Source of the DNA: Bolinopsis microptera
Lineage: Eukaryota > Ctenophora > Tentaculata > Lobata > Bolinopsidae
Assembly: GCF_026151205.1 (NCBI RefSeq)
Contig: NC_087081.1
Location: forward strand, 8,799,246-8,863,245
Reading direction: 5' to 3'
DNA: 64,000 bases
Position 1 is the stretch's first letter. Every line of letters begins with the position of its first letter. Under the pieces are notes generated by a model. It saw nothing but the letters and a program-made list of their open reading frames with translations. It was not told where the DNA came from and ran no database searches. A program made the position numbers and the translations under genes. Positions 1,308 through 62,680 of this stretch are shown here, piece after piece.

Positions 1308-2216
1308 TCAGTCCTTCTCGGAGCTTACGATCTTATTGTTCCTTATAACATGAACTCGCTGAGGCTCCAATTCCCGTTTCTGCTTAACTTCAAGAGCTAA
1401 CTTCCTGAAGGCAGCTCTCTGCTCGGCTGATCGGTCGGGGCTGATGTACACTGAGTCATACCCCTCCACTTCTCTTAGTTTTCTCGCTTTGCTCAACACT
1501 TGCCGCACATGATCTGAGCCGCTGAGAGTGAACTTGATAGGTTTAACGGCTGGTCCTCCATCTGATACAGTTCTCCCCATCCTACAGCAGGAAACGATTC
1601 GAGGTTTCTCATCTATGTTTTCTAGTACCTCAAGCACTCTCTTTTCCAGGATTTCTTCACTCTTTTCTGGTAGACCGTAGATGACCAGATTTTGACTACG
1701 ATCCTCTTCCTCGGAGGCACGTTTCAGAGCAGCTTTCATTTTCTTAGGCGCTAGCGCCTTGCTGCATGAATTCTTCACAACTGACGACCAGGCTTTGAGT
1801 TCGCTTTTCACTGTCGTCTGAACAGAGGTCAAATCTTCACTTTTCTTCTCAAGCAATTGTCCTTGCAGTTTAATCACAGTGTTCTGATCTGCAATCTTTT
1901 CGTCCTTCAGTTGGTCGATTTCATCTTGTAGTTTGGTGGCTGAAAACAACAGCGGTGAACAATAACTGTCGAGAATGTCGATAAAAGTTTCCATCCAATC
2001 ACACAGCGTAGCCTTGGTGATCTGAGGCTTGTTGAGCGTTTCTTTACGTAACACATTGGATTTCTGAACACCTGCCGCTTGACGCATATCGTTGAGTAGC
2101 ATAATCTGAGCACCCAAAATCTGTTCAGCATACATTGATCTGAATTTGAGTGTAGAGTAATTCAACGCTATTTCATTGTCAAGATTCTCCAAGTATTTGT
2201 TAACCATGATGTACAA
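1308..2216 (-). CDS. LINE ORF1-type RNA-binding protein
   Basis: Uninterrupted 302-aa frame. The N-terminal half is helical and charged, with coiled-coil-like heptads around residues 95-150. It is followed by a lysine-rich linker and then NLVIYGLPEKSEE, an R-x-GR segment (CCRMGRT) and VYISPDRSAEQRAAFRKL. The order coiled coil, then RRM-like 'NLVI-GLPE' domain, then basic C-terminal domain is that of ORF1 proteins of L1/CR1-like non-LTR retrotransposons, which bind the element's RNA as chaperones. No ORF2 follows on the same strand within the window, so this is an ORF1-only copy, a truncated element or a captured gene. The first M (MYIMVNKY) is used; the M three residues later is equally possible. 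Confidence 0.65.
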   Translation of the reverse strand: MYIMVNKYLENLDNEIALNYSTLKFRSMYAEQILGAQIMLLNDMRQAAGVQKSNVLRKETLNKPQITKATLCDWMETFIDILDSYCSPLLFSATKLQDEIDQLKDEKIADQNTVIKLQGQLLEKKSEDLTSVQTTVKSELKAWSSVVKNSCSKALAPKKMKAALKRASEEEDRSQNLVIYGLPEKSEEILEKRVLEVLENIDEKPRIVSCCRMGRTVSDGGPAVKPIKFTLSGSDHVRQVLSKARKLREVEGYDSVYISPDRSAEQRAAFRKLALEVKQKRELEPQRVHVIRNNKIVSSEKD

Positions 2217-2489
2217 TGTACACGCAGGGCCAGTTTAATATACACGAGTATATTATCTGCTACACAGTGAGAGCTGTTTAAACCGACGCAAAAGCAATTA
2301 ACTGATAAGACTAGCCATAAGTTAGGCTGATTCGACACTATGGAAAAATTCATTCTTGCAGGAGTTATGCAAGGGAATACGCTACCTGTTTGTCATTACT
2401 TATATTGAAGCTGTGTTGTGCAAAAGTCATAGAAGGTCGTGATCTTGGCTTCAAACTCGTTCTAATAGACCAAAATCATATATAAGACC

Positions 2490-4985: not shown

Positions 4986-6146
4986 TATACTGCCGTTTTC
5001 TCAGAAAAGGCAGTAAGTCCAATTTTTCGAAATATGACAATATTGGTATCAAAATTTTCAGTAGAAAATTCTCTACAACATGAGCTACATATTAATGTAT
5101 AGAAACATTGTTGCATGCAATTTCTAAGGAAGTAAGTCCCAGTTGAGAAACATTATGTTCGGTTTTGGCCAATTATTTTCTGAGAGAAGGACGTAAGTCC
5201 GGACTTACTGCCTTTTCTGAGAAAATCTTGAAAATCTTCTGAGATAAGGAAGTAATTCCGTGGACTTACTGCCTTTTCTGAGATAAATTATCTGTGATAG
5301 GAAGAAGTAGCTGGACTTACTTCCTATAAAAGCATGCTAAAAGCGCAATTTTAGAAAGCGATTTCCCAAAAAAGAACAAAACTTTACTGCCGATTGATAT
5401 TTTCGCTTGAAATTTTCAGAATCGATGTATAATTACATTTCAACTTTACTTAAGTGATCAAAATTTTCATTTAGGCCTCAAAAAAAATTTGGTGGCCGAT
5501 TTTCAAAAACGCCGGATGTATTTTAGTCGCAAAACATAAACATTGGAGCAGTTATTGAGCTGTTATAATCGCAGAGAATGTTTAGTTTAGGTATATCTTT
5601 TAGATCAAGTTCATTTTCATCAAAATATCGATAAGATATCATTTAATGCACTGAAATCTTTCAAAATTGGCGAGTTTGCCTAAATAAGGGCATACTATTA
5701 TTCAAAAACATTTATTATATGATATGGAGCAATTTAGATTTACCTAATTGTTTATATTTTACAATATAATCCAAAATACATAGATCCAAACCTCAAAAAT
5801 TTAGTAAAAAGCTTGGACTTACTTCCTTCTCAGAAAAATATTGAACAGAGATTTTTCTCAGAAAAGAAGGTAAGTCCAAGTTTTCTCAGAAAAGGCAGTA
5901 AGTCCATCCAGTATGAAAAATAAGCTCGATTATTTGGCATAAAAATGGTTATATCTAAGCTTATGGACGGCTCAAAGCTTTAATTTTTTTGACAAATTAA
6001 AATTTGACTAATTATTGATAACTCAACGTGTTTACTTCCGATCTTACGCAAAAAGTAAGCGGAGAAAAAACCATAAACGCAAAAGTCGCAATATCTCGAA
6101 ATGGCAAATATGGACTTACTGCCTTTTCTGAGAAAACGGCAGTATA
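4986..6146. mobile_element. Foldback-like TIR element 1 with internally repeated TIR motif
   Basis: 1.16-kb element with inverted ends TATACTGCCG...CGGCAGTATA, continuing into GGCAGTAAGTCC / GGACTTACTGCC. Flanking TA is consistent with a TA target. The terminal motif (TTACTGCCTTTTCTGAGA) recurs at least eight times inside in both orientations, near 5190-5220, 5250-5285, 5315, 5815-5900 and 6110. No transposase frame is visible, so it is non-autonomous. The segment at about 5465-5700 resembles the arm of the large palindrome at 28.5 kb. A related element sits at 21430-22518. Confidence 0.75.
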
Positions 6147-7050: not shown

Positions 7051-7660
7051 GAAAATGCGCGCGTTCGGCGGCGCGCGCTTCGCGCGCGAAAAGTGGCATG
7101 CAACGTATGTCAAGTATATTGTCACGCGCGGTCCCTTTGTATGTAGCGCGATGCACTACTGGGGTCGCGCGCGCATCAAATAATGCTTCTCGCAACCACG
7201 TATGCAGATCGGCGAGATGCGAAGGATTGACATCGTGAATCAAGCGGTCCCTCTGTATTCCCACGGTCGTTTCACCTAGTGCATGAAACGACCGTCATGG
7301 GGGTCACGACGTGATACAACGATTGTTGACATCGTCAATTTGCTCTAACCAGAGCCCACCTCGCTTGCAGTAGCGCACGACCGCCGACTTGTGAAACAAG
7401 CGCGTCACGCAGTTCGCGTAGACATGTCTAGACACTGGACACATGACCATGTGAATTGTGAAATCGTCAATCAATAGTACAATTACAATTAGGCTTAAAA
7501 CTGCCTCGAAAAGAAAGCGGCGCGCACTACTTCGAAGAAATTTATATAAGTAACATCCATCAACAATGCGCGTTAATTTAAATTTCGAGAGTCTATTGTA
7601 GGTTTAATTTTATAACCTACCAGGACGCGCGCCGAGTTGGACTCGTCGACGGACGACGGT

Positions 7661-12717: not shown

Positions 12718-13860
12718 GCGCGCGAAAAGTGGCATGCAACGTATGTCAAATTGTTAACCATTGTTAATGGTCGGGCCCGGCGCGCGCTTTCTCGAGAAGA
12801 AAGCGGCGCGCGCTACTTCGAATAAATTTAGACGAGTAACATCCGTCAATAAAATTGTTGTATTTTCAAACTGATTTCATTTTTTAATCTAGTATGCCTT
12901 TTATTTTGTAGTTGGAGGATTTTGTTGACGAATGTTACCCGTCTAAATTTATTCAAAGTAGCGCGCGCCGCAATTTCTTCTCGAAATGTTAAGTCATAAG
13001 TGACAAGCGCGAAGCGCGCGCCGGGCCGGATCATTAACAATGGTCAAAGGATTTTGCCGCTTCGACGCACCGCGCAAATTAGCATTCTTGCTTTGCAGAG
13101 CAACGATCTGGAAGGGTAGACATTTCACCTAACCATGTGCTTTCGCGCCACTTCGGGCGCGCTTGTTTCACAAGTCAAGAAACCGCCGTGAGGCGGGCGC
13201 GCGCTACTGCAAGCGCAAGGGCTCTGGATAGAGCAAGGTAGACATCATTAATAAAATTTTAATCAGAAAAATAACATTAATAATTATAAAGTGTTTCATG
13301 TCTCATGTCTACTCTCAAAACAAAACCAAAAAGCTTAGGTTAGAGAAACATAGCAACCTGTAACATGTAAGATTGGCTTCCAGCTCAATATTATTGAGAC
13401 TTGAGCTAATTGCGAGCGTGCTAAATAACTCCACAGTCGATCTTCGTGATTGTTCTAAAAGGGCCCCCGACAGTTTACAGTTTAAAGTGAAACCAACTTT
13501 GGACTTTAATCGATGTATTTTCGGACGCTGCCAAATAAATAAAAGCCCTCTCGCTTACAGTACGCGTATAACTGATACATATGATTATGTGAAGACGCTG
13601 ATTCCGAATCGAATCACTCCCCATTACATAGGTTAAAATTCCGAATTTCTATGATGATTATGAACTAAAATATAATAGCCCTGGGGTCCCCAGGTAAATC
13701 ATAAATATTTCTTGTAGCGCGATGCACTACTGGGTCGCGCCGCGCATCAAATAATTCTTCGCGCAACCTTCGGTAGATCGGCGAAATGCACCACTGTGCC
13801 TCACCGGGCTGCGAAGGATTGACATCGTGAATCAAAAATATTTCCTGACTATTACATAAA
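12718..13860. repeat. GC-rich repeat cluster with inverted arms
   Basis: The left arm (about 12755-12860, AAGCGGCGCGCGCTACTTCG ...) and the right arm (about 12903-13045, ... AAGTAGCGCGCGCCGC) are imperfect reverse complements around an AT-rich centre, so the block can form a large hairpin. Segments further right correspond to 6.7-7.4 kb in reverse (13437-13622) or direct (13709-13836) orientation. A partial MITE end (CTGGGGTCCCCAGGTAA) is at 13680-13696. Confidence 0.6.
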
Positions 13861-14315
13861 AGCTGAAAAGCTAGGTAGGTTATTTTATGTTTTACTTCAT
13901 TTATTTATTGGTGATATAACAAAAATCTCACCAAGATCTGAATGATATTTTAAATAATTGAATTTGTAGCGAATGTTTGTCGCTTTGCCCTTATCTGCAG
14001 AGGGTTTATCATTTTGAAGTACAATTGAGATTGGCTTTTATCTCCTCTGAGTAACACAAGTTATTGCCGACGTTTCGCCCACATGGCTTCTTCAAAGGCG
14101 GAAACATATTTTTTGTTACATAATCAATAATGTCCTGGTAAATATCCATATGAAGGTAAAACTCTAATTGTAATGATATGGTCTGTTAAAAGGAAAAGGT
14201 TTCAAACGATACAAAATTTCAAAGCAATAAATTGAGGTTTTGATTCACTTCTCAAACATTTTATTCACTTCTCAAACATTTTATCACTTCTCAAACATTT
14301 TATTACATTATGTTG
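13861..14315. other. Stretch upstream of the LINE
   Basis: Contains GACGTTTCGCC ... GGCTTCTTCAAAGG (about 14070-14100), a motif pair often seen at ends of eukaryotic retroelements, which could be a relic end. It also holds about three copies of a ~20-bp unit, CACTTCTCAAACATTTTAT, at 14243-14312. No gene is supported. Confidence 0.4.
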
Positions 14316-14524
14316 TTATCTAGTCTTGCTGCTAAATAGATAAGCCGACAGTGCAGCAGCTCATCGTGACGTGGCTTAAACGCTAATACTACGCACACTG
14401 ACTACAACACTACAGATAACAGAGACCCCTAGGCTCGGTGGCCCCAATTTAATTGGGCCCCTCCTTCCACATAAGTCCACCGTAGCCCTCCTTGAAGCGT
14501 AAGTTTACAAGTTTACCTTTCTAC

Positions 14525-16117
14525 ATGACTGAATCGACGGAACGCCCGTTTTGTTTCTCAACTGCAACCTGTTTGGAATTGATCGATAAACTCATTGTAT
14601 CTCAACTCGACCGTGAATTGCTGCTCTTTGGAGCGACTGAAGATGACCTTCAGTTATGCAAGCAATCCAAGCAGAAAATGCCACGTGCACACATTCTTGA
14701 CAGTCATAAGTGTACCTCTACATTAACCGAAACTACTGACAAACTTATCTCTCTAACTCAAATTTTTTCGAGATCGTCCACTGATGCGATGACCGGCCTC
14801 CTGAACACCGTTAGTGAAGCACAGTCCCTTGTCCAGTCTCTACGTGACCATTCTGCTCACCCTCCTACTCAACCTACAACCACCCTCCCCGAAATACCTG
14901 CACCACCTACACCGGTCCAGACTGTGGAACAGCCCTTCTCCAAGCTCGAAACTGGTGACCAGCTGCAGAGGTTTGACTTTAAGAGATTGGACTCTGAATT
15001 AACCTATGATAAAGTTTTCTCGAATAGAAAGGTTGCATATTTTGGCGATGCTCCTTACAAGTATTTAGGAGGGTACCACAGGGCAAAGCAATTAGACCCT
15101 GAGACGTACCTTGCTGAAAAACTTGTAGCAGTTGATGATGTGTGCAAGACCAACAACATCAACTATAAGGATTTCAATAGCTGCATGATCACCAAATATG
15201 AATCACACGTCTCGTGTATACCTCCTCATTCCGATGATGAATCGTGTATAGTACCCGACAGCACTATACTTACCATTTCCCTGGGGGGTAAAAGGGATTT
15301 AGTTTTTCGTAGACGTCCTCCAGGCGAGTATCGCGATGAAACCGTGACAGTTCAACACGGCGACTGTTACACTATGACGCGAAAGTCGCAGGACCTTTTT
15401 GACCATGCTGTTCCTCCGCAAACTCAGGCGGATTTTGAAGGTCCTCGAATCAGCTTAACCTTTAGACAGTTGGCCTCGGCACATTCCAGAAAATCTAGCA
15501 GCCATCAGCTGCGACCTCTACCCCATCATAAAGTGAACCAGACCAAACGAGTGCTGATACTGTCTGACAGCAAAAACTGTAATTTTGACTGTTCTCAATT
15601 TCGTTCACCTGTCATAGCGTTCCGGGAAAACTTATTTTTCCTCCGCGACTTAAAGGAACACCGGGAATCGATTCAACAAGCCGACATTGTACTCATAAGT
15701 GCTGGCATAAACGATATCCAGAAAAACAGAGCGAGTGCCGTCCTGCTGCATAATCACACCAGAAGTTTCATAGAACAGTTCCCGCGCACTATGTTCTTAT
15801 TCGATGCAGTCAGTCCACTATCGATACATGCTGACCGATTCAACACCCACAACGACATTATCCAGTACCTTAATGAACTCATGTTTAAGTGCTCCCTTCA
15901 CCATGACAACTTCAGACTCTTCGACAACTCAAGTTTTAGTCTCGCTCACCTCGCTCGTGACGGTCTACATCTTAACTATATTGGACAGAGTGTATTATCA
16001 GATTGCTGGGTAAACTGTGTGCTCATTGGACTGGGGTTCAGGCGTGGACCCCTACCTCTACGTGAGCACTTTAAACGTATGATATCTTATCCAATCCCTG
16101 GCCACTTTGGCACTTGA
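14525..16117 (+). CDS. LINE ORF1: AlkB-like dioxygenase fused to SGNH hydrolase
   Basis: 530 aa from the first ATG; a TTG eleven codons earlier is in frame but not preferred. Residues 1-140 are helical, then proline/threonine-rich. Residues about 150-320 carry the complete AlkB-type 2OG-Fe(II) signature: iron ligands H235-x-D237 (PPHSDDE) and H294 (FDHAVPP), then R308-x5-R314 (PRISLTFR), the 2-oxoglutarate/substrate arginines of that family. Residues about 340-500 form an SGNH/GDSL hydrolase: S349 in ILSDSK, G394-x-N396 in SAGINDI, and D479-x-x-H482 in DGLHLN. An esterase domain in ORF1 is known from CR1-like LINEs; the AlkB module is the unexpected part. By analogy with AlkB proteins that remove methyl lesions from RNA or DNA, it may repair or demethylate the element RNA (inference). 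Catalytic residues of both domains look intact. Confidence 0.85.
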   Translation: MTESTERPFCFSTATCLELIDKLIVSQLDRELLLFGATEDDLQLCKQSKQKMPRAHILDSHKCTSTLTETTDKLISLTQIFSRSSTDAMTGLLNTVSEAQSLVQSLRDHSAHPPTQPTTTLPEIPAPPTPVQTVEQPFSKLETGDQLQRFDFKRLDSELTYDKVFSNRKVAYFGDAPYKYLGGYHRAKQLDPETYLAEKLVAVDDVCKTNNINYKDFNSCMITKYESHVSCIPPHSDDESCIVPDSTILTISLGGKRDLVFRRRPPGEYRDETVTVQHGDCYTMTRKSQDLFDHAVPPQTQADFEGPRISLTFRQLASAHSRKSSSHQLRPLPHHKVNQTKRVLILSDSKNCNFDCSQFRSPVIAFRENLFFLRDLKEHRESIQQADIVLISAGINDIQKNRASAVLLHNHTRSFIEQFPRTMFLFDAVSPLSIHADRFNTHNDIIQYLNELMFKCSLHHDNFRLFDNSSFSLAHLARDGLHLNYIGQSVLSDCWVNCVLIGLGFRRGPLPLREHFKRMISYPIPGHFGT

Positions 16118-16942
16118 GCACGACGTATTTTATATCTTAATGTCAAATTATCATGACAAAAATATCGAATCCTGAACAACTTTCCAGACTCGCGCTGAGT
16201 CGCAAACAATTTCACTAATCAAACAAACGTAACTTATTTGAACAAACTCTTACCATATTTTTTAAATTTTCCGTCATTTCAAATCAAAATTAGAAACTTA
16301 AATCAAATTCAAACTCAAGCACAAAGCACATAATACAACCAACTACTTAAACGAACTTTTCCCTTATCCAGATTCCCTACCTTCTCACCTTATCTATCAC
16401 ACCTTATCAGCAAAACGCGAAATAAACCCTGCTTGATAATAGTCCACGTCCCTACATCATAACAATCATTTCATATTATCTAATTCCTAACCTCATGCCG
16501 TACAATGATGACGCAATATTTACACGATATCTACACAGATATTTACACAGTACTCATTATACATACATCACACATTACTGTACATTTGACTCTGTACATT
16601 TGACTGATCTGTACATTTGACTCTGTACATTTGACTCTGAACATTCGACACATACATTACTGTACATATGGAAATTAGGCTCATGCACGGTGAGCTGCTG
16701 CCATCAAGTAATAGAAGAGAAGTTAAAGGTCAATCATAAAGGTAAAGGTGAAGTTTACTTAATTACTGTAGATAAGTCACGGTACTTTCTACACACAGGA
16801 CTGAAAGTCTTCGTTAGAAGTATATCTGACTAGGTCACGTTATTATTATCATATTTTGTATTAATAGTAAGTCTATACTCTCTTAAATATATCATAATAT
16901 AACTATAATACAAACGAATATAATACATTATCTCATAGTTCT
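16118..16942. other. LINE inter-ORF spacer
   Basis: 825 bp without a frame, AT-rich. It contains the ~18-bp tandem unit around GTACATTTGACTCT (16575-16660). How ORF2 is translated across such a spacer is not evident; a second promoter, IRES-like entry or splicing are possibilities. Confidence 0.6.
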
Positions 16943-19900
16943 ATGAACGAATCTCAGCGTTGCAACAAATGTTATACACGTATTCCTAAAGCACGTTCGT
17001 TCCTAATTTGCAGTCACTGCGACAAAATAAAACATATGAAATGCATGAAGTTATCTAAGTCTGAGGCAAAAATAATTGTAGATTCTGGCTCTGCCTGGAT
17101 ATGTTATGACTGTATTTCCAGCGCCTTACCAGTAAATGCATGCCCCTCGGCAAAGCCACCGAGACAAGGGCCCGTCATAGGTCCTAAATTTAAAGTTCAA
17201 TGCACATGCTGTAATGGCTGGATTTACTCCCCCGCCAACCTGAAAACCTGCCACTGGTGCGAATCTAAAGTGCATACCAAATGTCACTCCGACTTATTAG
17301 GATGCAGAAATTGCTGTGAAAATATGATCCCGGGATACTATGTACATTGCTATCAGCTATACTCATTACATACACATACTCACACCGGCGCAATCCACAA
17401 TCCCTACGATCGCTATCAGTTGATTAACGAAATAGGAAATACAATTGACCAAGATCAGGAACTCGAATATTGGAATGAGATTTCTGATATTTTAGTTAGC
17501 TGCAATTACATGGAGCCGACAAATGTAAGTTCGTCAGGACCATGTGATCTTAAGATATTTACCTTAAACATACGGGGACTTCTTAAAAACGTAGACAAAT
17601 TAAGAGAAGATATATTCACGTACTCGAAGTATGATGTCCTTTGTTTTAACGAGACTAATCTCTTGCAGGATAAGCTTCCTAATGGTATTAATGACCTAGT
17701 GCTTGAGGGATTTTATGAACCACTGTTACGAGATCCAATACGTAGTTCTGGTCGTGGTGGGGGTTTAGCAATTTATATCAATACGCGCGTATGTGAGTCT
17801 GAAAATATTGAAAAATTCTTTCCCCAAAACTTTCATGTGACAGACAAGAGTGGTGAATTCATGTTGGTAAAACTCCATAACTGCAAAGGCTTTAACAAAA
17901 CAAAGATAATCGTCAATATATATCGGTCACCAGCATCAAAAAATCCTGATAATTTTAACAAACTCATTGACTCCCTATTACACGGCATGGAAAGGCACTC
18001 GAGAAAACATACTATATTAGTCGGTGATTTCAATGTAGATCTTTCACATTATGATACTGACAAACATTGTCAAAATTTGATTGAAACTATGACTAAATAC
18101 GGTTTTTTTCAGCTAGTCTCACGTCCCACACGTATCACTGATCACAGTGCCACTCTTATAGATCATGTTTACAGCAATAACGTACAACACACACACAGCT
18201 GCAATGTTCTTACTGTTGACCTGTCTGATCATCTAGCCACTCTTGTTACTATCTCACTTGGGCAATACAGCCACATTGCAGGGAGTAGAAACAAACGACA
18301 CAGAGTCGACCATGGAATGAATATTGAAAAACGTATGTTTAACGAGTCGAACAACCTTAAATTTATAGAATTAATTGGATCCGAAATGTGGGAGGAAGTC
18401 ACACGTGAAAATTGTGCTGATGAACAATATAACAAATTTATTGAAATATACAGTCAGCATTATGATGAGGCATACCCAGTGAAAACCAATCATGTGCGCC
18501 GCAAATTTGAAAGGCAGGACCCCAAACCTTTTATGCTACCCTGGCTTGAAATTGCATGTGCTCGTAAAAACAAATTATTCCATGCCAAAATAGTGGACCC
18601 AACGGAGGAAAACTACAAGGCTTACAAAAAGCATAAGGCATTCTGCGACAAGCACATCAATAAGGCAAAAGACAAATACTACAAAACACAATTTGATAAG
18701 TATAAAGATTGTTCAAAGAAACAATGGCAGCTGATCAACACTCTACTTGGCAGAAAATCTAAATCTCATAACAAAATTAAACTCCAAAACGCCGACGGAA
18801 ATATCATAAATAGTGACAGTGATGTAGCTGAGCACTTTAACTCTTACTTCTCCAACATTGCCACAAAAATCAAAGATGCGATCAGCGCGCGTACTGTATT
18901 CGATCCAGGGGGTTTTAAACATTACCTTAGCAGCCCAGCTTCGCAGTCTATGTTCGTAAGACCAACTACCGAAAGTGAAGTTGAACAAATTATTAGCAAG
19001 CTTAAGAATAAATCCACTCAAGACACTAAAATTGAACCCCTAAAAATTGTAAAAGACTGCCCCTCCTTCTGTAAAGTCTTGTCCATAATCATTAACACAT
19101 CATTTAGTCAAGGTATCTTCCCATCATCTCTCAAAATAGCTAAAGTTATACCAATTCACAAAGGAGGCAGCAAATCCGACGCCACTAACTATCGACCCAT
19201 ATCTTTGCTGTGCACCTTTTCCAAATTGTATGAAAAACTTATGCATAATAGAGTAATGGACTTCCTTGACAAGAAAGGCTCGCTCTTTGAAGGGCAATAT
19301 GGCTTCCGGCCAGGCCGATCCTGTGAGCATGCTCTTTTGGATGCTCAACACACGATTCTGAATTCCCTTGCCAAAAAGGAAGTTGCTCTATTACTCCTAG
19401 TCGACTTTAGTAAAGCTTTTGATGTTTTGTCTCATGATGTATTGATTGACAAACTCCAGCACTATGGAATCCGTGGGCAAGCTTTGCAATGGTTTAAATC
19501 CTACCTGAGCACACGTCAGCAATATGTATGTTTGAATGGTATTAAATCAGCTCTTAAACCTATTACATACGGAGTTCCACAGGGCAGTATTATGGGACCT
19601 TTGTTATTCCTAATCTACATCAATGATATGCCAAATATCAACAGTATGATAAAGTTTATACTCTACGCTGATGATGCGAACATCATAATAAAAGGAAAAA
19701 ATGCAAACGATGTTATACAAAAATTCAACCAATTCTCCCACGAGTTTGTACGCTGGGTTGACTGTAATGGACTTGCACTTAATCTAAAAAAGACCTGCTA
19801 TATGCTTTTCGGTGTTAGAAATACTGATAATACTCCAAATATTCATATTGCAGACACACAATTAGAACGTAAAAGGGAAGCACGGTTCCTTGGCGTTATA

Positions 19901-20602
19901 ATGGATGATAAACTAACATGGTCTAAGCATATAGCAGCTGTTAGATCAAAAATGATGCGGTATGTAGGAATTATGTATAAAATAAAACGTCACCTATCGA
20001 TTCAAATAAGGCTACAGATATATCAAAGTTTTGTTCAATCGCATTTAAACTTCTGTTCAATTGTATGGGGGTTTGCAGCAAAAAATCACATTGAATCACT
20101 CTTCTCACGACAAAAACAGGGTATCAGGGCAGTAATGCCAGGTCACATTAATTACTTTTACAAAGACGGTCGACTGCCAGAACACACAAAACAATTTTTC
20201 AATAACAATGGTATACTCACGGTGCACAGTGTTATTGTAAAAAACACACTAATTCTCATGCACCGAATCAAACATTTCCGCAGCTCAGTCCCTCAACAAA
20301 TCTGTATGACTATCCCAGAAAATGCACCCACTGCAAACTCAGATCACGTGACTGCAGCATCCTGGTTAGCCGAGTACAACACCACACATTTCAGATCTTC
20401 GATGTTCTTCAAAGGACCTTTACTCTCAATTTATGCTGTAAATGCAAATGTAAGCACCCTACCCACACTTTTTTCCATAAACCTTTTTAAATCGGCTACA
20501 AAACGCATGCTCTTGAACCTGCAGAGTGAAAATGACGATGACACGTGGCCCAGTTTCTTATTACATAATATTCCAGGTCTAAGAAGGTCACAACGTGTCT
20601 GA
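16943..20602 (+). CDS. LINE ORF2: PHD finger, endonuclease, reverse transcriptase
   Basis: 1219 aa, uninterrupted. Residues 7-57 form a textbook C4HC3 PHD finger (C7, C10, C23, C26, H31, C34, C54, C57, with W52 before the last pair). A second Cys/His cluster follows at about residues 90-125. An exonuclease-endonuclease-phosphatase type nuclease follows (FTLNIRGL, CFNETNL, GDFNVDL, LIDHVYSNN, LSDHLATL) and nicks target DNA. The reverse transcriptase has NYRPISLL, GQYGFRPGRS, DFSKAFD (D821), GVPQGSIMGPLLFL and YADD (908-911). There is no RNase H. Domain order and RT motifs fit the Jockey/CR1/L2 group; the exact clade needs a tree. A PHD finger in ORF2 rather than ORF1 is notable, since CR1 PHD fingers are described in ORF1. 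Confidence 0.9.
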   Translation: MNESQRCNKCYTRIPKARSFLICSHCDKIKHMKCMKLSKSEAKIIVDSGSAWICYDCISSALPVNACPSAKPPRQGPVIGPKFKVQCTCCNGWIYSPANLKTCHWCESKVHTKCHSDLLGCRNCCENMIPGYYVHCYQLYSLHTHTHTGAIHNPYDRYQLINEIGNTIDQDQELEYWNEISDILVSCNYMEPTNVSSSGPCDLKIFTLNIRGLLKNVDKLREDIFTYSKYDVLCFNETNLLQDKLPNGINDLVLEGFYEPLLRDPIRSSGRGGGLAIYINTRVCESENIEKFFPQNFHVTDKSGEFMLVKLHNCKGFNKTKIIVNIYRSPASKNPDNFNKLIDSLLHGMERHSRKHTILVGDFNVDLSHYDTDKHCQNLIETMTKYGFFQLVSRPTRITDHSATLIDHVYSNNVQHTHSCNVLTVDLSDHLATLVTISLGQYSHIAGSRNKRHRVDHGMNIEKRMFNESNNLKFIELIGSEMWEEVTRENCADEQYNKFIEIYSQHYDEAYPVKTNHVRRKFERQDPKPFMLPWLEIACARKNKLFHAKIVDPTEENYKAYKKHKAFCDKHINKAKDKYYKTQFDKYKDCSKKQWQLINTLLGRKSKSHNKIKLQNADGNIINSDSDVAEHFNSYFSNIATKIKDAISARTVFDPGGFKHYLSSPASQSMFVRPTTESEVEQIISKLKNKSTQDTKIEPLKIVKDCPSFCKVLSIIINTSFSQGIFPSSLKIAKVIPIHKGGSKSDATNYRPISLLCTFSKLYEKLMHNRVMDFLDKKGSLFEGQYGFRPGRSCEHALLDAQHTILNSLAKKEVALLLLVDFSKAFDVLSHDVLIDKLQHYGIRGQALQWFKSYLSTRQQYVCLNGIKSALKPITYGVPQGSIMGPLLFLIYINDMPNINSMIKFILYADDANIIIKGKNANDVIQKFNQFSHEFVRWVDCNGLALNLKKTCYMLFGVRNTDNTPNIHIADTQLERKREARFLGVIMDDKLTWSKHIAAVRSKMMRYVGIMYKIKRHLSIQIRLQIYQSFVQSHLNFCSIVWGFAAKNHIESLFSRQKQGIRAVMPGHINYFYKDGRLPEHTKQFFNNNGILTVHSVIVKNTLILMHRIKHFRSSVPQQICMTIPENAPTANSDHVTAASWLAEYNTTHFRSSMFFKGPLLSIYAVNANVSTLPTLFSINLFKSATKRMLLNLQSENDDDTWPSFLLHNIPGLRRSQRV

Positions 20603-21203
20603 AAGTTACTGGACACAACAGTCATTATATCAGTTTAGTGAATTAGTTAATTAGTTAATTAGTAAATCAGTTATTAGTCATATGGTTATTATTAAGTACT
20701 ATATATTATATGATATTACAAAAATAAACTATGAATATATATTTGCACACAAAAAAACCAGAACAAACTGATCACAGACTAGCGGCAACTAATATTAATG
20801 GATAAGCCACACATCCTAAATTCCAGGTCCATATTTACACTGCCACATTCCCCACTATCACTATTTTCCTATCAGCACAAACCGTAATTAATTGATTTCA
20901 ACAATCACAAACACTACATATCCAAACTAATGACATGGCATAGCAATATCTACGATATCCTAAATCAGTCCCTAACAAACTTAGCGCGAGTCTGAAAGGC
21001 TGTTGGAAGCACAGAGTGCTCCATATTTTGTTTTTATCAATAAACCTTTTTTTTTCATTTTCATTTTCTTTTTTCTATAAATTTATTAACTGCGTGCAAA
21101 TTTGTGTTTCAGATTTGATCTATTTATGATATATATTTATAATTATGTAATAAAGTTATTAATATTATATTCGTAAACATTGGCTGGCTTACAAACCAGT
21201 CCC

Positions 21204-21204
<1 letters not shown>

Positions 21205-21251
<47 letters not shown>
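21205..21251 (+). repeat. Poly(A) tract, ~45 bp
   Basis: An uninterrupted A run follows CCAGTCCCC, with CG-rich repeat (CGCATCTCGCCGATCTGC, GCGGCCCAGTAG) on its right. It could be the tail of a retroposed sequence or a slippage product. Confidence 0.7.
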
Positions 21252-21254
<3 letters not shown>

Positions 21255-21429
21255 ATGTCAATCCTTCGCATCTCGCCGATCTGCATACGTGGTTGCGATG
21301 CGCGGCGCGGCCCAGTAGTTGGTAGTGGCAGTGCATCGCGCTACAAATTGAGGTTAGGCAAAAGAATCTAAAAATCGTCATTAAAATAAATCAGTTATGT
21401 TTTAATTTCGTATCATCGTCTAGCTCTGT

Positions 21430-22518
21430 TATACTGCCGTTCCCTGAGAAAAGGCAGTAAGTCACATCGATGTCATTTTGAGAAAATGGGACAAACGTGT
21501 TTGTCGTTTTTTAGGTAATTTTATTCGTATAAACGGGGTTAATTTGGACATCTTCGTGTAAATAAATTATTGTCATATGTCCTAAACATGCTTAAAAGCA
21601 TAAATTCACCAACACTGATCTATAAAAACCATTTTTCTTCAGAATAAATGAACTATTTTCCCATCCGCATTGGACTTACTGCCTTTTCTGAGGGAATTGC
21701 GGACTTACTGCCTTTTATCAGGATCGATTTTAACCGATTCCTCTCTAGAAAGGCAGTAAGTCCATTTTTCCTCAGATAAAGTCAACACAAAAAATACAAC
21801 ATTTCTATATTTTTGATCATATCCTTGCAATATAATTATGTGGGCCTCCTGTGCATTGCAAGTGTGTAATATTGACGAAAAATTGATAATTTCTCGCTCA
21901 AAATGCCTATAACTCCTTAAATATCGAATATTTTGGAATAATTTTTACAGCATCATATTCAGCTTGGTCAGACACATTAAATTCGAAAAAAAATTTGAAC
22001 ATACAATATTTAAAGCACCAAATTTAAAAAAAAATGTTTCAATAATTCACACAAGGGGGGACCCTTGTGTTCAGGTTCAAAAATTTTGAAAATAATATTT
22101 TTTTAAATTTTGAATTATTAGTACCAAAATTTTTTGCTTGCTGAGCTGATTACGACCACATAAAAATTATTTCGATATAACTAAAACTGTGGAAGTTATA
22201 GGCCAAAAACTATAAAAACTGCAAATAAATCTGGACTTACTGCCTTTTCTCAGGGAAAAAGTTCCCTCACGGAAAAAGTTCCCTCAGAGAAGGCTGTACA
22301 AATGGACTTACTGCCTTTTCTCAGGGAAGGTTTTGGGATTATGTGCTAAATTTTCAAGTTTTGTGTGACTTACTGCCTTTCGTGACAGCTAAAACAGTAT
22401 TTTTATAACGTGATTCATAGCTTAAGTTGTAGAGAATCTTTTCCTGAAAATTTTGGTACCAATATCTCTAAATTTCGAAAAATGGACTTACTGCCTTCTC
22501 TCAGGGAACGGCAGTATA
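21430..22518. mobile_element. Foldback-like TIR element 2
   Basis: 1.09-kb element with ends TATACTGCCG...CGGCAGTATA, the same as the element at 4986-6146. The motif GGACTTACTGCCTTTTCT is reiterated inside at about 21670, 21700, 21755, 22230, 22300, 22370 and 22485. The core at about 21830-22215, including a C-rich/G-rich hairpin flanked by ACACAAGG, matches the reverse complement of about 63235-63600, inside an element with different termini. No coding capacity is seen. Confidence 0.75.
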
Positions 22519-30229: not shown

Positions 30230-31160
30230 TTATTGCAAGACTGTGACCAGGCGGACTGGTTCTGAAATTGTATACTTTAGATATCTAGGAACTATAAACA
30301 AACATTTAATTACCCTAATCCTCATAATCCACTTGCAGGCCATATCAACTCTAGGTCCAGTCACAAACATCAAACAGAACTTACCGCCAGAGGATCCACC
30401 AACACTCCGATGGATAGCTGCTGTTAACCAGGTTTCCTGATTTAGTCTGGTGACTTTGTCGTCGATCAGGCGTTTGATGTAAAATTGTGGAATTGGGCAC
30501 TTTAAAGTGGATTCACTGGTTGTGCCAGTCTTGGCCAGCTCATTTGCTTTTTCATTACCCCACAATCCGATGTATGCAGCTATCGATCGGATCTCTAGAG
30601 TGTTAGTGGATCCGAGTGCAAATTGATGGTGTCATAACAGTCTCTAGTATAGTTCTACTTCTCGTTGGGAGCGAGGATATAGCTTGTATAGAGGAGAGAC
30701 TGTCTGACCATATGATGATGTGTGTGTTGGTATAAGTTGAGAGATATTTGCAAGCTTCGATGATGGCGGTGAGCTCTTTTTGATACAGATAAACAGTGCA
30801 ATAATCGGGAAGCTTGAATTATCTTTCCTTTAGGGTGGTGTAATCGTTATTGTCACTTTGTCAGTAGTGATGATATAGCAAGCCCCGCTACCTGAGTTTG
30901 TGCGTGACCCGTCTGTGTAGCATCTCACTGGAGATGTTGTCGATGGTGTTTTGAAGTGAATCTCTATTATAGTCTATATTCAATTTTGTCAGCTCCAGGA
31001 GTGATGACTGTGAAATGCCGTTCAAGCATTTAGCATCATGGTTGGTATTTATAGGTCTCTCTCTCTCTCTCTCTCTGCTTTGGATGGTATGTTGAGATAT
31101 ACCATGAATTGTTTGTTGATAGTGGTGTGAGTTTTGATGGTACCTTTTTTGAAGGCGACA
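30230..31160 (-). pseudogene. Decayed LINE RNase H domain
   Basis: On the reverse strand, LNIDYNRDSLQNTIDNISS and CYTDGSRTNSGSGACYIIT are followed, after breaks, by GLWGNEKANELAKTGTTSES. These match the T-D-G-S and 'GNExADxLAK' blocks of the RNase H domain that ends ORF2 in I/R1-type LINEs. Stops and frame changes (near 30620-30650 and 30840) show it is dead. The intact final portion continues to 30230. No RT domain is visible upstream, so this is a 5'-truncated copy. Confidence 0.7.
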
Positions 31161-39143: not shown

Positions 39144-39220
39144 AGAAGATTGGTTACATGAGCTTGCCGGATGTATATCTCAATTACGTAGCTTAGTGTT
39201 CAACTAACTTATAATTGTCG

Positions 39221-39865
39221 CTGTGGGCCTGCCACTGTGGGCCTACCGCTGTGCGCCTGCTGCTGTGCGCCTGCTGCTGTGCGCCTGCTGCTGTGCGCCT
39301 GCTGCTGTGGGCCTGCTGCTGTGGGCCTGCTGCTGTGGGCCTGCTGCTGTGGGCCTGCTGCTGTGGGCCTGCTGCTGTGGGCCTGCTGCTGTGGGCCTGC
39401 TGCTGTGGGCCTGCTGCTGTGGGCCTGCTGCTGTGGGCCTGCTGCTGTGGGCCTGCTGCTGTGGGCCTGCTGCTGTGGGCCTGCTGCTGTGGGCCTGCCA
39501 CTGTGGGCCTGCTGCTGTGGGCCTGCTGCTGTGGGCCTGCTGCTGTGGGCCTGCTGCTGTGGGCCTGCTGCTGTGGGCCTGCTGCTGTGGGCCTGCTGCT
39601 GTGGGCCTGCCACTGTGGGCCTGCTGCTGTGGGCCTGCTGCTGTGGGCCTGCTGCTGTGGGCCTGCTGCTGTGGGCCTGCTGCTGTGGGCCTGCTGCTGT
39701 GGGCCTGCTGCTGTGGGCCTGCTGCTGTGGGCCTGCTGCTGTGGGCCTGCTGCTGTGGGCCTGCTGCTGTGGGCCTGCTGCTGTGGGCCTGCTGCTGTGG
39801 GCCTGCTGCTGTGGGCCTGCTGCTGTGGGCCTGCTGCTGTGGGCCTGCTGCTGTGGGCCTGCCGC
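39221..39865. repeat. 14-bp GC-rich minisatellite, ~46 copies
   Basis: The unit GGGCCTGCTGCTGT is repeated with very few variants: GTGCGCC near the left edge, and CCACTG in two interior units. Because 14 is not a multiple of three and the unit lacks stops, all frames on both strands stay open (AAVGLLLWACCCGP forward, SSRPTAAGPQQQAH reverse). There is no sign of real coding. Confidence 0.95.
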
Positions 39866-42201: not shown

Positions 42202-45200
42202 ATGTACCGAAGTTTGGGGTTGCTATCCTTGATCCTGGTCTCCGTCGTGTCACTAAGATGTGACTACAAGGGTTACAAGGATGTCACGGACCGGCCTGTC
42301 GAATCTATGGAGTGGTTTAATACACTTTCTGAATCCTGGTAAATTATTCATCATCACTCGTTAATCTGCCAACTAATCCTGGTAAATTATTCATCATCAC
42401 TCGTTAATCTACCAACTAATCCTGGTAAATTATTCATCATCACTCGTTAATCTGCCAACTAATCCTGGTAAATTATTCATCATCACTCGTTAATCTGCCA
42501 ACTAATCCTGGTAAATTATTCATCATCACTCGTTAATCTGCCAACTAATCCTGGTAAATTATTCATCATCACTCGTTAATCTGCCAACTAATCCTGGTAA
42601 ATTATTCATCATCACTTGTTAATCTGCCAACTAATCCTGGTAAATTATTCATCATCACTCGTTAATCTGCCAACTAATCCTGGTAAATTATTCATCATCA
42701 CTCGTTAATCTGCCAACTAATCCTGGTAAATTATTCATCATCACTCGTTAATCTTCCAACTAATCCTGGTAAATTATTCATCATCACTCGTTAATCTGCC
42801 AACTAATCCTGGTAAATTATTCATCATCACTCGTTAATCTGCCAACTAATCCTGGTAAATTATTCATCATCACTCGTTAATCTGCCAACTAATCCTGGTA
42901 AATTATTCATCATCACTCGTTAATCTGCCAACTAATCCTGGTAAATTATTCATCATCACTTGTTAATCTGCCAACTAATCCTGGTAAATTATTCATCATC
43001 ACTCGTTAATCTGCCAACTAATCCTGGTAAATTATTCATCATCACTCGTTAATCTGCCAATTAATCCTGGTAAATTATTCATCATCACTCGTTAATCTGC
43101 CAACTAATCCTAGTAAATTATTCATCATCACTCGTTAATCTGCCAACTAATCCTGGTAAATTATTCATCATCACTCGTTAATCTGCCAACTAATCCTGGT
43201 ATATTATTCATCATCACTCGTTAATCTGCCAACTAATCCTGGTAAATTATTCATCATCACTCGTTAATCTGCCAACTAATCCTGGTAAATTATTCATCAT
43301 CACTCGTTAATCTGCCAACTAATCCTGGTAAATTATTCATCATCACTCGTTAATCTGCCAACTAATCCTGGTAAATTATTCATCATCACTCGTTAATCTG
43401 CCAACTAATCCTGGTAAATTATTCATCATCACTCGTTAATCTACCAACTAATCCTGGTAAATTATTCATCATCACTCGTTAATCTGCCAACTAATCCTGG
43501 TAAATTATTCATCATCACTCGTTAATCTGCCAACTAATCCTGGTATATTATTCATCATCACTCGTTAATCTGCCAACTAATCCTGGTAAATTATTCATCA
43601 TCACTCGTTAATCTGCCAACTAATCCTGGTAAATTATTCATCATCACTCGTTAATCTGCCAACTAATCCTGGTAAATTATTCATCATCACTCGTTAATCT
43701 ACCAACTAATCCTGGTAAATTATTCATCATCACTCGTTAATCTGCCAACTAATCCTGGTAAATTATTCATCATCACTCGTTAATCTGCCAACTAATCCTG
43801 GTAAATTATTCATCATCACTCGTTAATCTGCCAACTAATCCTGGTAAATTATTCATCATCACTCGTTAATCTTCCAACTAATCCTGGTAAATTATTCATC
43901 ATCACTCGTTAATCTGCCAACTAATCCTGGTAAATTATTCATCATCACTCGTTAATCTGCCAACTAATCCTGGTAAATTATTCATCATCACTCGTTAATC
44001 TACCAACTAATCCTGGTAAATTATTCATCATCACTCGTTAATCTGCCAACTAATCCTGGTAAATTATTCATCATCACTCGTTAATCTACCAACTAATCCT
44101 GGTAAATTATTCATCATCACTCGTTAATCTGCTAACTAATCCTGGTAAATTATTCATCATCACTCGTTAATCTACCAACTAATCCTGGTAAATTATTCAT
44201 CATCACTCGTTAATCTGCCAACTAATCCTGGTAAATTATTCATCATCACTCGTTAATCTGCCAATTAATCCTGGTAAATTATTCATCATCACTCGTTAAT
44301 CTGCCAACTAATCCTAGTAAATTATTCATCATCACTCGTTAATCTGCCAACTAATCCTGGTAAATTATTCATCATCACTCGTTAATCTGCCAACTAATCC
44401 TGCTAAATTATTCATCATCACTCGTTAATCTGCCAACTAATCCTGGTAAATTATTCATCATCACTCGTTAATCTGCCAACTAATCCTGGTAAATTATTCA
44501 TCATCACTCGTTAATCTGCCAACTAATCCTGGTAAATTATTCATCATCACTCGTTAATCTGCCAACTAATCCTGGTAAATTATTCATCATCACTCGTTAA
44601 TCTGCCAACTAATCCTGGTAAATTATTCATCATCACTCGTTAATCTGCCAACTAATCCTGGTAAATTATTCATCATCACTCGTTAATCTGCCAACTAATC
44701 CTGGTAAATTATTCATCATCACTCGTTAATCTGCCAACTAATCCTGGTAAATTATTCATCATCACTCGTTAATCTGCCAACTAATCCTGGTAAATTATTC
44801 ATCATCACTCGTTAATCTACCAACTAATCCTGGTAAATTATTCATCATCACTCGTTAATCTACCAACTAATCCTGGTAAATTATTCATCATCACTCGTTA
44901 ATCTGCCAACTAATCCTGGTAAATTATTCATCATCACTCGTTAATCTGCCAACTAATCCTGGTAAATTATTCATCATCACTCGTTAATCTGCCAACTAAT
45001 CCTGGTAAATTATTCATCATCACTCGTTAATCTACCAACTAATCCTGGTAAATTATTCATCATCACTCGTTAATCTGCCAACTAATCCTGGTAAATTATT
45101 CATCATCACTCGTTAATCTGCCAACTAATCCTGGTAAATTATTCATCATTACTCGTTAATCTGCCAACTAATCCTGGTAAATTATTCATCATCACTCGTT

Positions 45201-48200
45201 AATCTACCAACTAATCCTGGTAAATTATTCATCATCATTCGTTAATCTACCAATTAATCCTGGTAAATTATTCATCATCACTCGTTAATCTACCAACTAA
45301 TCCTGGTAAATTATTCATCATCACTCGTTAATCTGCCAACTAATCCTGGTAAATTTTTCATCATCACTCGTTAATCTGCCAACTAATCCTGGTAAATTAT
45401 TCATCATCACTCGTTAATCTGCCAACTAATCCTGGTAAATTATTCATCATCACTCGTTAATCTGCCAACTAATCCTGGTAAATTATTCATCATCACTCGT
45501 TAATCTACCAATTAATCCTGGTAAATTATCGATCATCACTCGTTAATCTGCCAACTAATCCTGGTAAATTATTCATCATCACTCGTTAATCTGCCAATTA
45601 ATCCTGGTAAATTATTCATCATCACTCGTTAATCTGCCAACTAATCCTGGTAAATTATTCATCATCACTCGTTAATCTGCCAACTAATCCTGGTAAATTA
45701 TTCATCATCACTCGTTAATCTGCCAACTAATCCTGGTATATTATTCATCATCACTCGTTAATCTGCCAACTAATCCTGGTAAATTATTCATCATCACTCG
45801 TTAATCTGCCAACTAATCCTGGTAAATTATTCATCATCACTCGTTAATCTGCCAATTAATCCTGGTAAATTATTCATCATCACTCGTTAATCTGCCAATT
45901 AATCCTGGTAAATTATTCATCATCAGTCGTTAATCTACCAACTAATCCTGGTAAATTATTCATCATCACTCGTTAATCTACCAACTAATCCTGGTAAATT
46001 ATTCATCATCACTCGTTAATCTGCCAACTAATCCTGGTAAATTATTCATCATCACTCGTTAATCTGCCAACTAATCCTGGTAAATTATTCATCATCACTC
46101 GTTAATCTACCAATTAATCCTGGTAAATTATCTATCATCACTCGTTAATCTGCCAACTAATCCTGGTAAATTATTCATCATCACTCGTTAATCTGCCAAC
46201 TAATCCTGGTAAATTATTCATCATCACTCGTTAATCTGCCAACTAATCCTGGTAAATTATTCATCATCACTCGTTAATCTGCCAATTAATCCTGGTAAAT
46301 TATTCATCATCACTCGTTAATCTACCAACTAATCCTGGTAAATTATTCATCATCATTCGTTAATCTACCAATTAATCCTGGTAAATTATTCATCATCACT
46401 CGTTAATCTACCAACTAATCCTGGTAAATTATTCATCATCACTCGTTAATCTGCCAACTAATCCTGGTAAATTATTCATCATCACTCGTTAATCTGCCAA
46501 CTAATCCTGGTAAATTATTCATCATCACTCGTTAATCTGCCAACTAATCCTGGTAAATTATTCATCATCACTCGTTAATCTACCAACTAATCCTGGTAAA
46601 TTATCTATCATCACTCGTTAATCTGCCAACTAATCCTGGTAAATTATTCATCATCACTCGATAATCTGCCAATTAATCCTGGTAAATTATTCATCATCAC
46701 TCGTTAATCTGCCAACTAATCCTGGTAAATTATTCATCATCACTCGTTAATCTGCCAACTTATCCTGGTAAATTATTCATCATCACTCGTTAATCTACCA
46801 ATTAATCCTGGTAAATTATCGATCATCACTCGTTAATCTGCCAACTAATCCTGGTAAATTATTCATCATCACTCGTTAATCTGCCAATTAATCCTGGTAA
46901 ATTATTCATCATCACTCGTTAATCTGCCAACTGATCCTGGTAAATTATTCATCATCACTCGTTAATCTGCCAACTAATCCTGGTAAATTATTCATCATCA
47001 CTTGTTAATCTGCCAACTAATCCTGGTAAATTATTCATCATCACTCGTTAATCTGCCAACTAATCCTGGTAAATTATTCATCATCACTCGTTAATCTGCC
47101 AACTAATCCTGGTAAATTATTCATCATCACTCGTTAATCTGCCAACTAATCCTGGTAAATTATTCATCATCACTCGTTAATCTGTCAATTAATCCTGGTA
47201 AATTATTCATCATCACTCGTTAATCTACCAACTAATCCTGGTAAATTATTCATCATCACTCGTTAATCTACCAATTAATCCTGGTAAATTATTCATCATC
47301 ACTCGTTAATCTGCCAACTAATCCTGGTAAATTATTCATCATCACTCGTTAATCTGCCAACTAATCCTGGTAAATTATTCATCATCACTCGTTAATCTGC
47401 CAACTAATCCTGGTAAATTATTCATCATCACTCGTTAATCTGCCAACTAATCCTGGTAAATTATTCATCATCAATCGTTAATCTGCCAACTAATCCTGGT
47501 AAATTATTCATCATCACTCGTTAATCTGCCAACTAATCCTGGTAAATTATTCATCATCACTCGTTAATCTGCCAACTAATCCTGGTAAATTATTCATCAT
47601 CACTCGTTAATCTGCCAACTAATCCTGGTAAATTATTCATCATCACTCGTTAATCTGTCAATTAATCCTGGTAAATTATTCATCATCACTCGTTAATCTA
47701 CCAACTAATCCTGGTAAATTATTCATCATCACTCGTTAATCTACCAATTATTCCTGGTAAATTATTCATCATCACTCGTTAATCTGCCAACTAATCCTGG
47801 TAAATTATTCATCATCACTCGTTAATCTGCCAACTAATCCTGGTAAATTATTCATCATCACTCGTTAATCTGCCAACTAATCCTGGTAAATTATTCATCA
47901 TCACTCGTTAATCTGCCAACTAATCCTGGTAAATTATTCATCATCAATCGTTAATCTACCAATTAATCCTGGTAAATTATCTATCATCACTCGTTAATCT
48001 GCCAACTAATCCTGGTAAATTATTCATCATCACTCGTTAATCTGCCAATTAATCCTGGTAAATTATTCATCATCACTCGTTAATCTGCCAATTAATCCTG
48101 GTAAATTATTCATCATCACTCGTTAATCTGCCAACTAATCCTGGTAAATTATTCATCATCACTCGTTAATCTACCAATTAATCCTGGTAAATTATCTATC

Positions 48201-62179: not shown

Positions 62180-62289
62180 TACATGCCTTGAATAATGGGA
62201 AAAGCGACCGACATATTTCATTATCGGTATCATTTTGCGTTTGGGTACGGTAATTCAAATTGATATCACTTCCTTTTGTTTGGAAAAAG

Positions 62290-62680
62290 GAAACACTAGC
62301 AACGGTCCTGCGGTCCAACTCCACTCTACCCAATTTTGGGTTTTGTTTAAGATACATGATCCTGATTCAACTGCAGTACACCTCATCACGGGACATTGTG
62401 GCCTCAACAAACACCTACACACCATTCGCAAATCAGACACAAGTGCTTCTCCTAAATGCGGCGACGGAGAGGAGACTGTCTCACACTTTCTCGGACTGCG
62501 GACAGTGCCCGGCTATTGCCCAAATTGAAATAAGAGGTCAATATTTCCGGGACTAATACCTCTCTCACAATGACATATTCGACAACCAACACATCTCCAC
62601 CATTGTCAACTTTACAAACCACACTAAACGCTTAGTGGTGCTAGAGGAGTTGGACCAGACAGGTGTAACATAGCGACTAT
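62290..62680 (+). pseudogene. Decayed LINE ORF2 C-terminus
   Basis: In frame, DSTAVHLITGHCGLNKHLHT is followed by IRKSDTS-x2-PKCGDGEETVSHFLG. After a frame change come IRGQYFRD and ISTIVNFTNHTKRLVVLEEL. The 'LITGHxxLxxHL' block plus C-x2-CGxxEETxxH zinc-knuckle pattern is what follows RNase H in I/R1-type LINEs. At least one frameshift (about 62505-62520) and an in-frame stop make it non-functional. Confidence 0.65.

Follow-up and report, generated by a model that had tools for sequence, protein, structure and literature searches.

The proteins encoded by the first open reading frame (ORF1) of long interspersed nuclear elements (LINEs) are regarded as packaging and chaperone proteins. Some of them include an esterase domain: This is the case for ORF1 of CR1, L2 and RTEX LINEs, whose Type IV (esterase) proteins have in some cases a coiled coil or a zinc finger/leucine zipper (PMC3905857, PMC4120745). 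The SGNH domain has been termed unique among ORF1 proteins for its enzymatic function (PMC3905857). Dioxygenases of the AlkB family are also carried by retrotransposons, as described in orchids: Ty3/Gypsy long terminal repeat (LTR) elements such as Gypsy_Pa_2799 contain an AlkB (2-ODD) frame, a separate ORF2 which follows gag-pol, with RNA binding and N6-methyladenosine (m6A) demethylase activity in vitro; its product is similar to m6A demethylases (PMC9289625). Here we describe a LINE found in a stretch of 64,000 nucleotides from the ctenophore Bolinopsis microptera (contig NC_087081.1, positions 8,799,246 to 8,863,245), which will be called the window. The protein encoded by its ORF1 (ORF1p) contains an AlkB-type domain, similar to human ABH2 and ABH3, joined to an SGNH-like domain. 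A functional AlkB in a retrotransposon has thus a precedent in the orchid elements (PMC9289625); the differences here are that the element is a LINE and that AlkB lies inside its ORF1, next to an SGNH-like domain. The original prediction, made from the sequence, had compared the domain with the AlkB of plant RNA viruses. This analogy is real, since the AlkB domain of plant Flexiviridae is also part of an RNA-based replicator, although it lies in the polyprotein of an RNA virus which does not use reverse transcription (PMC544882); the orchid elements are the closer precedent.

The organization of ORF1 is as follows:

14525..16117, + strand: ORF1, 530 amino acids plus stop
14525..14920, + strand: N-terminal part of ORF1p, residues 1-132, with helices predicted at low confidence
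14921..15478, + strand: AlkB-type 2-oxoglutarate-Fe(II) (2OG-Fe(II)) dioxygenase domain, residues 133-318, with Fe ligands H235, D237 and H294, arginines R308 and R314, Y225, and T223 replacing Asn
15479..15550, + strand: basic linker, residues 319-342, with 6 K/R and 0 D/E
15551..16114, + strand: SGNH-like domain, residues 343-530, with S349, N396, D479 and H482; the block II glycine is absent

A frame of 530 codons would be expected by chance with a probability of 2.5e-12, according to a rough model based on single-base composition, and the remaining five frames over the same region have from 22 to 50 stops each. An in-frame TTG is found upstream of the start, at 14492. We have read the sequence again: The frame, its coordinates and the nine residues which had been singled out (H235, D237, H294, R308, R314, S349, N396, D479 and H482) are all in place.

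The assignment of residues 133-318 to the AlkB family is based on sequence profiles and on a structure model. Two profile libraries match ORF1p to AlkB far beyond chance. With the Pfam family PF13532 the score is 67.5 bits, compared with a curated cut-off of 31.2, and the significant matches in a sequence search of the PDB are ABH2 and ABH3 chains only. NCBIfam, whose models are intended for prokaryotes, gave no match up to E 1. A complete dioxygenase had been proposed, with an AlkB fold expected at residues 150-320. The Pfam and PDB matches agree with this expectation, and the word complete is fair, as the model superposes residues 133-318 on ABH2 and 134-318 on ABH3.

The comparison with viral AlkBs shows which positions are conserved. 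The alignment used (A3) includes 15 of the 19 AlkB loci detected in viral contigs. We excluded L014 (the same protein as L013), L026 (a near-copy of L025) and two partial loci, L016 (frame broken, 105 amino acids) and L019 (no start, 83 amino acids). Alignment A2 contains 7 of 19 phage records. H235, D237 and H294 align with the invariant H, D and H of all 15 viral proteins, forming the typical H-x-D...H triad, and the R-x5-R found near the end of the domain corresponds to R308 and R314. If we take as near-invariant those columns in which 14 or more of the 15 viral proteins share one residue, ORF1p keeps 21 out of 29, including all the iron ligands and both arginines. When all columns are considered, it agrees with the viral majority in 47 of 169 and differs in the other 122. 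Identity is 22-29% to the 15 viral AlkBs and about 26% to ABH2 in a structural alignment. Taken together, human ABH2 and ABH3 have 21-26% identity to the ORF1p domain in structural alignments; they are cellular proteins, with no attached SGNH-like domain.

A double-stranded beta-helix is predicted by the structure model, as had been anticipated. The clustering of H235, D237 and H294, which had also been anticipated, is deduced from the superposition on ABH2, according to which the three residues would lie together. ABH2 and ABH3 rank above ABH5, ABH6, AlkB and FTO in the structural comparison, while a profile made from A3, which contains mostly viral AlkBs, places ABH3 first and ABH2 next. The 50 VIA rows listed correspond to AlkB, ABH2, ABH3 and FTO chains, and they cover residues 130-328 of the model; the rest of ORF1p is barely probed. 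An extra segment before the conserved P-R is present in 5 of the 15 viral rows and absent from ORF1p. We take this to be the place where ABH2 holds a finger which probes duplex DNA; its absence would therefore favour single-stranded substrates. The lack of this segment also speaks against a possible action on DNA, in which the domain would repair the target site or newly made cDNA, or remove modifications from them, or would counter adenine methylation of the element's DNA. As ORF1p is expected on RNA, we consider such an action improbable.

ORF1 proteins are believed to form a coat on the RNA which encodes them. The account towards which we lean, with some reserve, is that the ABH2/ABH3-type domain of ORF1p would clean the RNA template of the element from methyl groups on the Watson-Crick face, while the SGNH-like half would be structural. 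ORF1p, if it behaves like other ORF1 proteins, would coat the element's RNA, and the AlkB domain would oxidatively strip from it bases such as 1-methyladenosine (m1A) and 3-methylcytidine (m3C), produced by alkylation damage or by host methylation. These bases halt or mislead reverse transcriptases; a template which is cleaned before or during target-primed reverse transcription would give longer and more accurate copies. The identity of the domain, its intact iron site, the intact frame and the location in ORF1 are seen in the sequence and the model, while we infer the activity, the RNA substrate, the action in cis and the benefit to reverse transcription. Several published results are of interest in this context. 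ABH3 acts on m1A and m3C in single-stranded DNA and in RNA, while ABH2 acts on double-stranded DNA; ABH3 is described as the enzyme chiefly responsible for m1A in RNA (PMC11431407). Methylated bases impede reverse transcription, and this is relieved by treatment with AlkB (PMC8053708, PMC7968990), which is used in the laboratory ahead of cDNA synthesis (PMC8053708).

The methyl group removed might also be a different one. The enzyme of the orchid retrotransposons demethylates m6A in vitro (PMC9289625), and ORF1p might remove m6A from the element's RNA, which would thus escape host readers or decay. We find this distinctly unlikely: In both sequence and model, the domain is nearer to ABH2 and ABH3 than to ABH5 or FTO, and m6A promotes the retrotransposition of human L1, which is suppressed by ALKBH5 (PMC7873242). 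The fact that removal of m6A by ALKBH5 lowers the retrotransposition of human L1 speaks against an escape from m6A and in favour of lesion repair (PMC7873242).

The second half of ORF1p had been called an SGNH hydrolase. This is correct as far as the catalytic Ser, Asp and His and the Asn of block III are concerned: S349, N396 (in GIND), D479 and H482 (in DGLH) are present. Nevertheless, the block II (oxyanion) Gly is missing, as the first glycine after S349 is G394. The Pfam family Lipase_GDSL_2 matches the whole ORF1p with E 0.0013 and 19.7 bits, under the cut-off of 32.9, and the piece alone with 20.3 bits. Because of the missing glycine and the low score, an active hydrolase is doubtful: We prefer to call this region SGNH-like and do not claim any hydrolase activity. 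A flavodoxin-like alpha/beta fold is typical of SGNH hydrolases. The full-length model shows here five strands with intervening helices, at low confidence, and a model made from the single sequence has a mean predicted local distance difference test (pLDDT) value of 42. A Foldseek search with the latter gave 544 matches, none of which reached E 0.001. The first five of these weak matches, the best with E 0.022, all correspond to the acetylxylan esterase Axe2, an SGNH enzyme. With such a pLDDT and such E values, an esterase fold deduced from the single sequence is only suggestive. A tblastn search of phage records gave eight matching records up to E 10: The four best are annotated as esterase, GDSL hydrolase or GDSL-like lipase (E 0.03-0.7), while the other four are unannotated or virion proteins. 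PHROG 14008, of unknown function, weakly matches residues 381-493 (0.0082).

A close counterpart is ZfL2-1, a CR1/L2 element with a Type IV ORF1, which also has an SGNH domain upstream of an ORF2 with APE endonuclease and reverse transcriptase (RT) domains (PMC3905857). The spacing of the key residues is similar: S143, N195, D279 and H282 in ZfL2-1 (52, 84 and 3) versus S349, N396, D479 and H482 in ORF1p (47, 83 and 3). In contrast, G165, part of the oxyanion hole of ZfL2-1, has no counterpart in ORF1p, and the coiled coil found in ZfL2-1 is not clear in our protein (PMC3905857). SGNH proteins which have lost hydrolysis do exist, for example Oskar (PMC3905857). The SGNH-like half would most likely retain a structural role in ORF1, for instance in assembly or in association with membranes, while hydrolysis would be reduced or absent.

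The N-terminal region gives few clues. A Pfam scan of residues 1-145 alone, up to E 10, found nothing. The heptad score of the N-terminus is reached by 43 of 300 shuffles, so we do not claim a coiled coil. No known RNA-binding domain (RRM, zinc knuckle/CCHC, CTD or others) is detected by Pfam in ORF1p up to E 10, which agrees with a role of the AlkB domain on RNA.

Several observations weigh against the cleaning of the RNA template. The Asn of the N-x-Y motif, a 2OG contact in AlkB, is found in 15 of 15 viral AlkBs and also in human ABH2 and ABH3, while ORF1p has T223 in this position; seven more near-invariant columns are also changed. ABH2, which acts on double-stranded DNA, and ABH3, which acts on single strands, are tied in the structural comparison, so the substrate may be of either class. 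Moreover, the model is not independent of homology, because its alignment contains AlkB rows. The enzymatic activity of the domain, its binding to RNA and its substrate are predictions from sequence and model. Finally, only a single copy of an element with this ORF1 is known, from the 64-kb window, so fixation of the AlkB domain and selection on it would be conjectural.

Some of these points suggest another role for the domain: It might be mainly a nucleic-acid-binding module, which takes the place of an RRM or a zinc knuckle, with weak or lost catalysis. The lack of any RRM, CCHC or CTD match in Pfam would fit this idea. So would the replacement of Asn by T223 and the state of the adjoining SGNH-like domain, which also seems catalytically worn; both enzymes may thus persist as folds. 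T223 and the worn neighbour make this a serious rival, although on the whole an unlikely one: The three iron ligands and both conserved arginines, none of which is needed by a mere binder, are kept in a domain which differs from the viral majority in most of its columns.

The limits of the element and its remaining features are the following:

13712..13830, no strand assigned: left arm of the host flank, which forms an inverted repeat with 21252-21346
13836..14524, + strand: inferred 5' untranslated region, 689 bp; its 5' end is where the similarity to the flank repeat unit stops
16118..16942, + strand: space between ORF1 and ORF2, 825 bp, with short tandem repeats at 16516-16649
16943..20602, + strand: ORF2, 1219 amino acids, with a PHD-like finger (7-57), an APE-type endonuclease (207-430) and a reverse transcriptase (744-986, YADD at 908)
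20603..21204, + strand: 3' untranslated region, 602 bp, between ORF2 and poly(A)
21205..21251, + strand: poly(A) tract of 47 A, 3' end of the element
21252..21346, no strand assigned: right arm of the host flank, in reverse complement to the left one, directly after the poly(A)

This is a near-intact APE-type LINE of about 7.4 kb with a poly(A) tail. The domain order, taken alone, places it in the CR1/L2-like kind. ORF2 matches the APE endonuclease family PF03372 (6.7e-13) and the reverse transcriptase family PF00078 (6.4e-35), and contains the motifs YADD, GDFN and SDH; in the PDB it is matched best by human L1 ORF2p (7.2e-18). The PHD-like finger reaches 24.6 bits when the N-terminus is scanned alone, with a cut-off of 24, and 20.8 bits, below the cut-off, in the whole protein. 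L2 LINEs of subgroup 5 are similar in this respect, since they probably have a PHD at the start of ORF2, while their ORF1 is of the transposase-22 type and not AlkB plus SGNH (PMC4120745). We also considered the AlkB-bearing Ty3/Gypsy elements, with LTRs and gag-pol, as a possible identity and rejected it: The element has a poly(A) tail and an APE-RT ORF2. The tandem repeats at 16516-16649, with units of 12, 14 and 31 bp, might be a site for control of ORF2 translation.

The two flank arms allow us to propose the limits of the insertion. Their alignment has a score of 68, which is not reached by any of 1000 block shuffles (maximum 41) or 1000 random pairs of places (maximum 52) drawn from the window, with the large satellites excluded. 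Most simply, ORF1 and ORF2 would have arrived together in an insertion of about 7.4 kb into a palindromic repeat, which was split in this way. TCAA is found at both junctions, after the poly(A) and at the end of the left flank: This pair may be a short target-site duplication, although it is too short to be sure. The 5' end is placed where the match with the repeat unit stops and does not come from comparison with another copy of the element. The repeat unit appears at least once more in the window, at about 7142-7243; it is dispersed, flanks the LINE as two inverted copies and looks like a foldback or miniature inverted-repeat transposable element (MITE).

The long gap of 825 bp between both ORFs, and the fact that no second copy fixes the ends of the element, might suggest that ORF1 does not belong to the LINE: It would be an independent gene of the host, or a different insertion, which just happens to precede a LINE ORF2. 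We consider this highly improbable. The inverted arms of one repeat unit meet the element upstream of the 5' region of ORF1 and right at the poly(A), enclosing both ORFs, which share strand and order; ORF1s with an esterase are known in CR1, L2 and RTEX LINEs (PMC3905857, PMC4120745). A host gene beside a LINE is rejected on the basis of these arms. The original prediction is supported in part: An AlkB-type domain and an SGNH-like one are encoded together, in a single frame which precedes an intact LINE ORF2. Its further proposal, an RNA demethylase which would shield the RNA of the element, is a conjecture. The intact state of ORF1, ORF2 and poly(A), all within the arms, also favours the proposal that ORF1p cleans the RNA template.

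No other copy of the element is found in the window outside positions 13001-22000. When viral contigs were scanned, ORF1p gave 3 pattern matches and ORF2 gave 4, with no relatives in either case; ORF1p gave 30 pattern matches in prokaryote genomes, also with no relatives. Viral and prokaryote collections would hardly hold a eukaryotic LINE, so these results would be expected even if siblings exist. In the scan of viral contigs with the AlkB alignment, 17 of the 19 loci have frames of 179-231 amino acids, the size of AlkB alone; judging by frame length alone, none of the 19 has a second domain of the SGNH kind. In the phage locus L001 (Acinetobacter phage MD-2021a) the AlkB gene is directly downstream of a gene annotated as ada_1, regulatory protein, as in the bacterial adaptive response; this may be host DNA in the record.

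The single copy and the lack of relatives in these collections could be understood if the element were a one-off or recent chimera, with an AlkB captured by transcript fusion or template switch as a functionless passenger. There is little chance of this, we believe. Apart from the nature of the collections scanned, the capture is fully in frame between the N-terminal region and the SGNH-like domain, 530 codons without a stop, and the iron site has been kept in spite of the low identity to viral AlkBs and ABH2.

No standard LINE architecture with AlkB was known to the original prediction, and we have found no report of AlkB in a LINE among the papers listed from the open-licence PMC literature, judged mostly from titles and abstract starts; Repbase and subscription journals are outside this scope, so a prior description is possible. 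The terms AlkB and dioxygenase do not occur, in a term search of the text available, in a survey of 448 ORF1s of the Jockey superfamily (PMC4120745), in the main text of the LINE esterase paper (PMC3905857) or in a paper on bdelloid retroelements (PMC5408684).

Other features of the window include additional repeats and possible remains of LINEs. A motif of 24 bases, GACTTACTGCCTTTTCTCAGGGAA, is found at 4996-6136 and 21440-22508, with 7 copies on the + strand and 3 on the - strand (up to 3 mismatches), some of them close together in opposite orientation. Long satellites are present: 42332-48520, with a 43-bp unit and about 144 copies; 54836-58941 and 59794-60674, with a 58-bp unit and about 71 and 15 copies; and 39220-39862, with a 14-bp unit and about 46 copies. 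An open frame of 308 codons at 1308-2234 (- strand) has no significant Pfam match (best 0.085); it resembles the ORF1 of a different LINE and contains a part similar to a coiled coil and the string QNLVIYGLPE. The frames at 30230-30631 (-), 59370-59792 (-) and 62196-62528 (+) resemble C-terminal pieces of other LINE ORF2s, for example RNase H (GLWGNEKANELAK). Neither Rfam, at gathering score, nor ARAGORN gave any match.

In summary, an ABH2/ABH3-type AlkB in ORF1p may serve to clean the RNA of this element. A wider proposal, which we put forward as a conjecture, is that there are LINEs, as a class, whose ORF1 particle protein includes a nucleic-acid repair enzyme of their own. This enzyme would act in cis on the packaged RNA and erase m1A and m3C to allow read-through by the RT of the same element. 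If true, this would be a built-in template-cleaning step, not described for any LINE in the literature covered. It would add another AlkB-bearing RNA-based replicator to the orchid LTR elements and the plant viruses, in this case one which needs a clean template for reverse transcription, and it predicts that target-primed reverse transcription would be limited by template methylation. With a demethylase in ORF1, retrotransposition would be directly linked to RNA damage or to control of the epitranscriptome.
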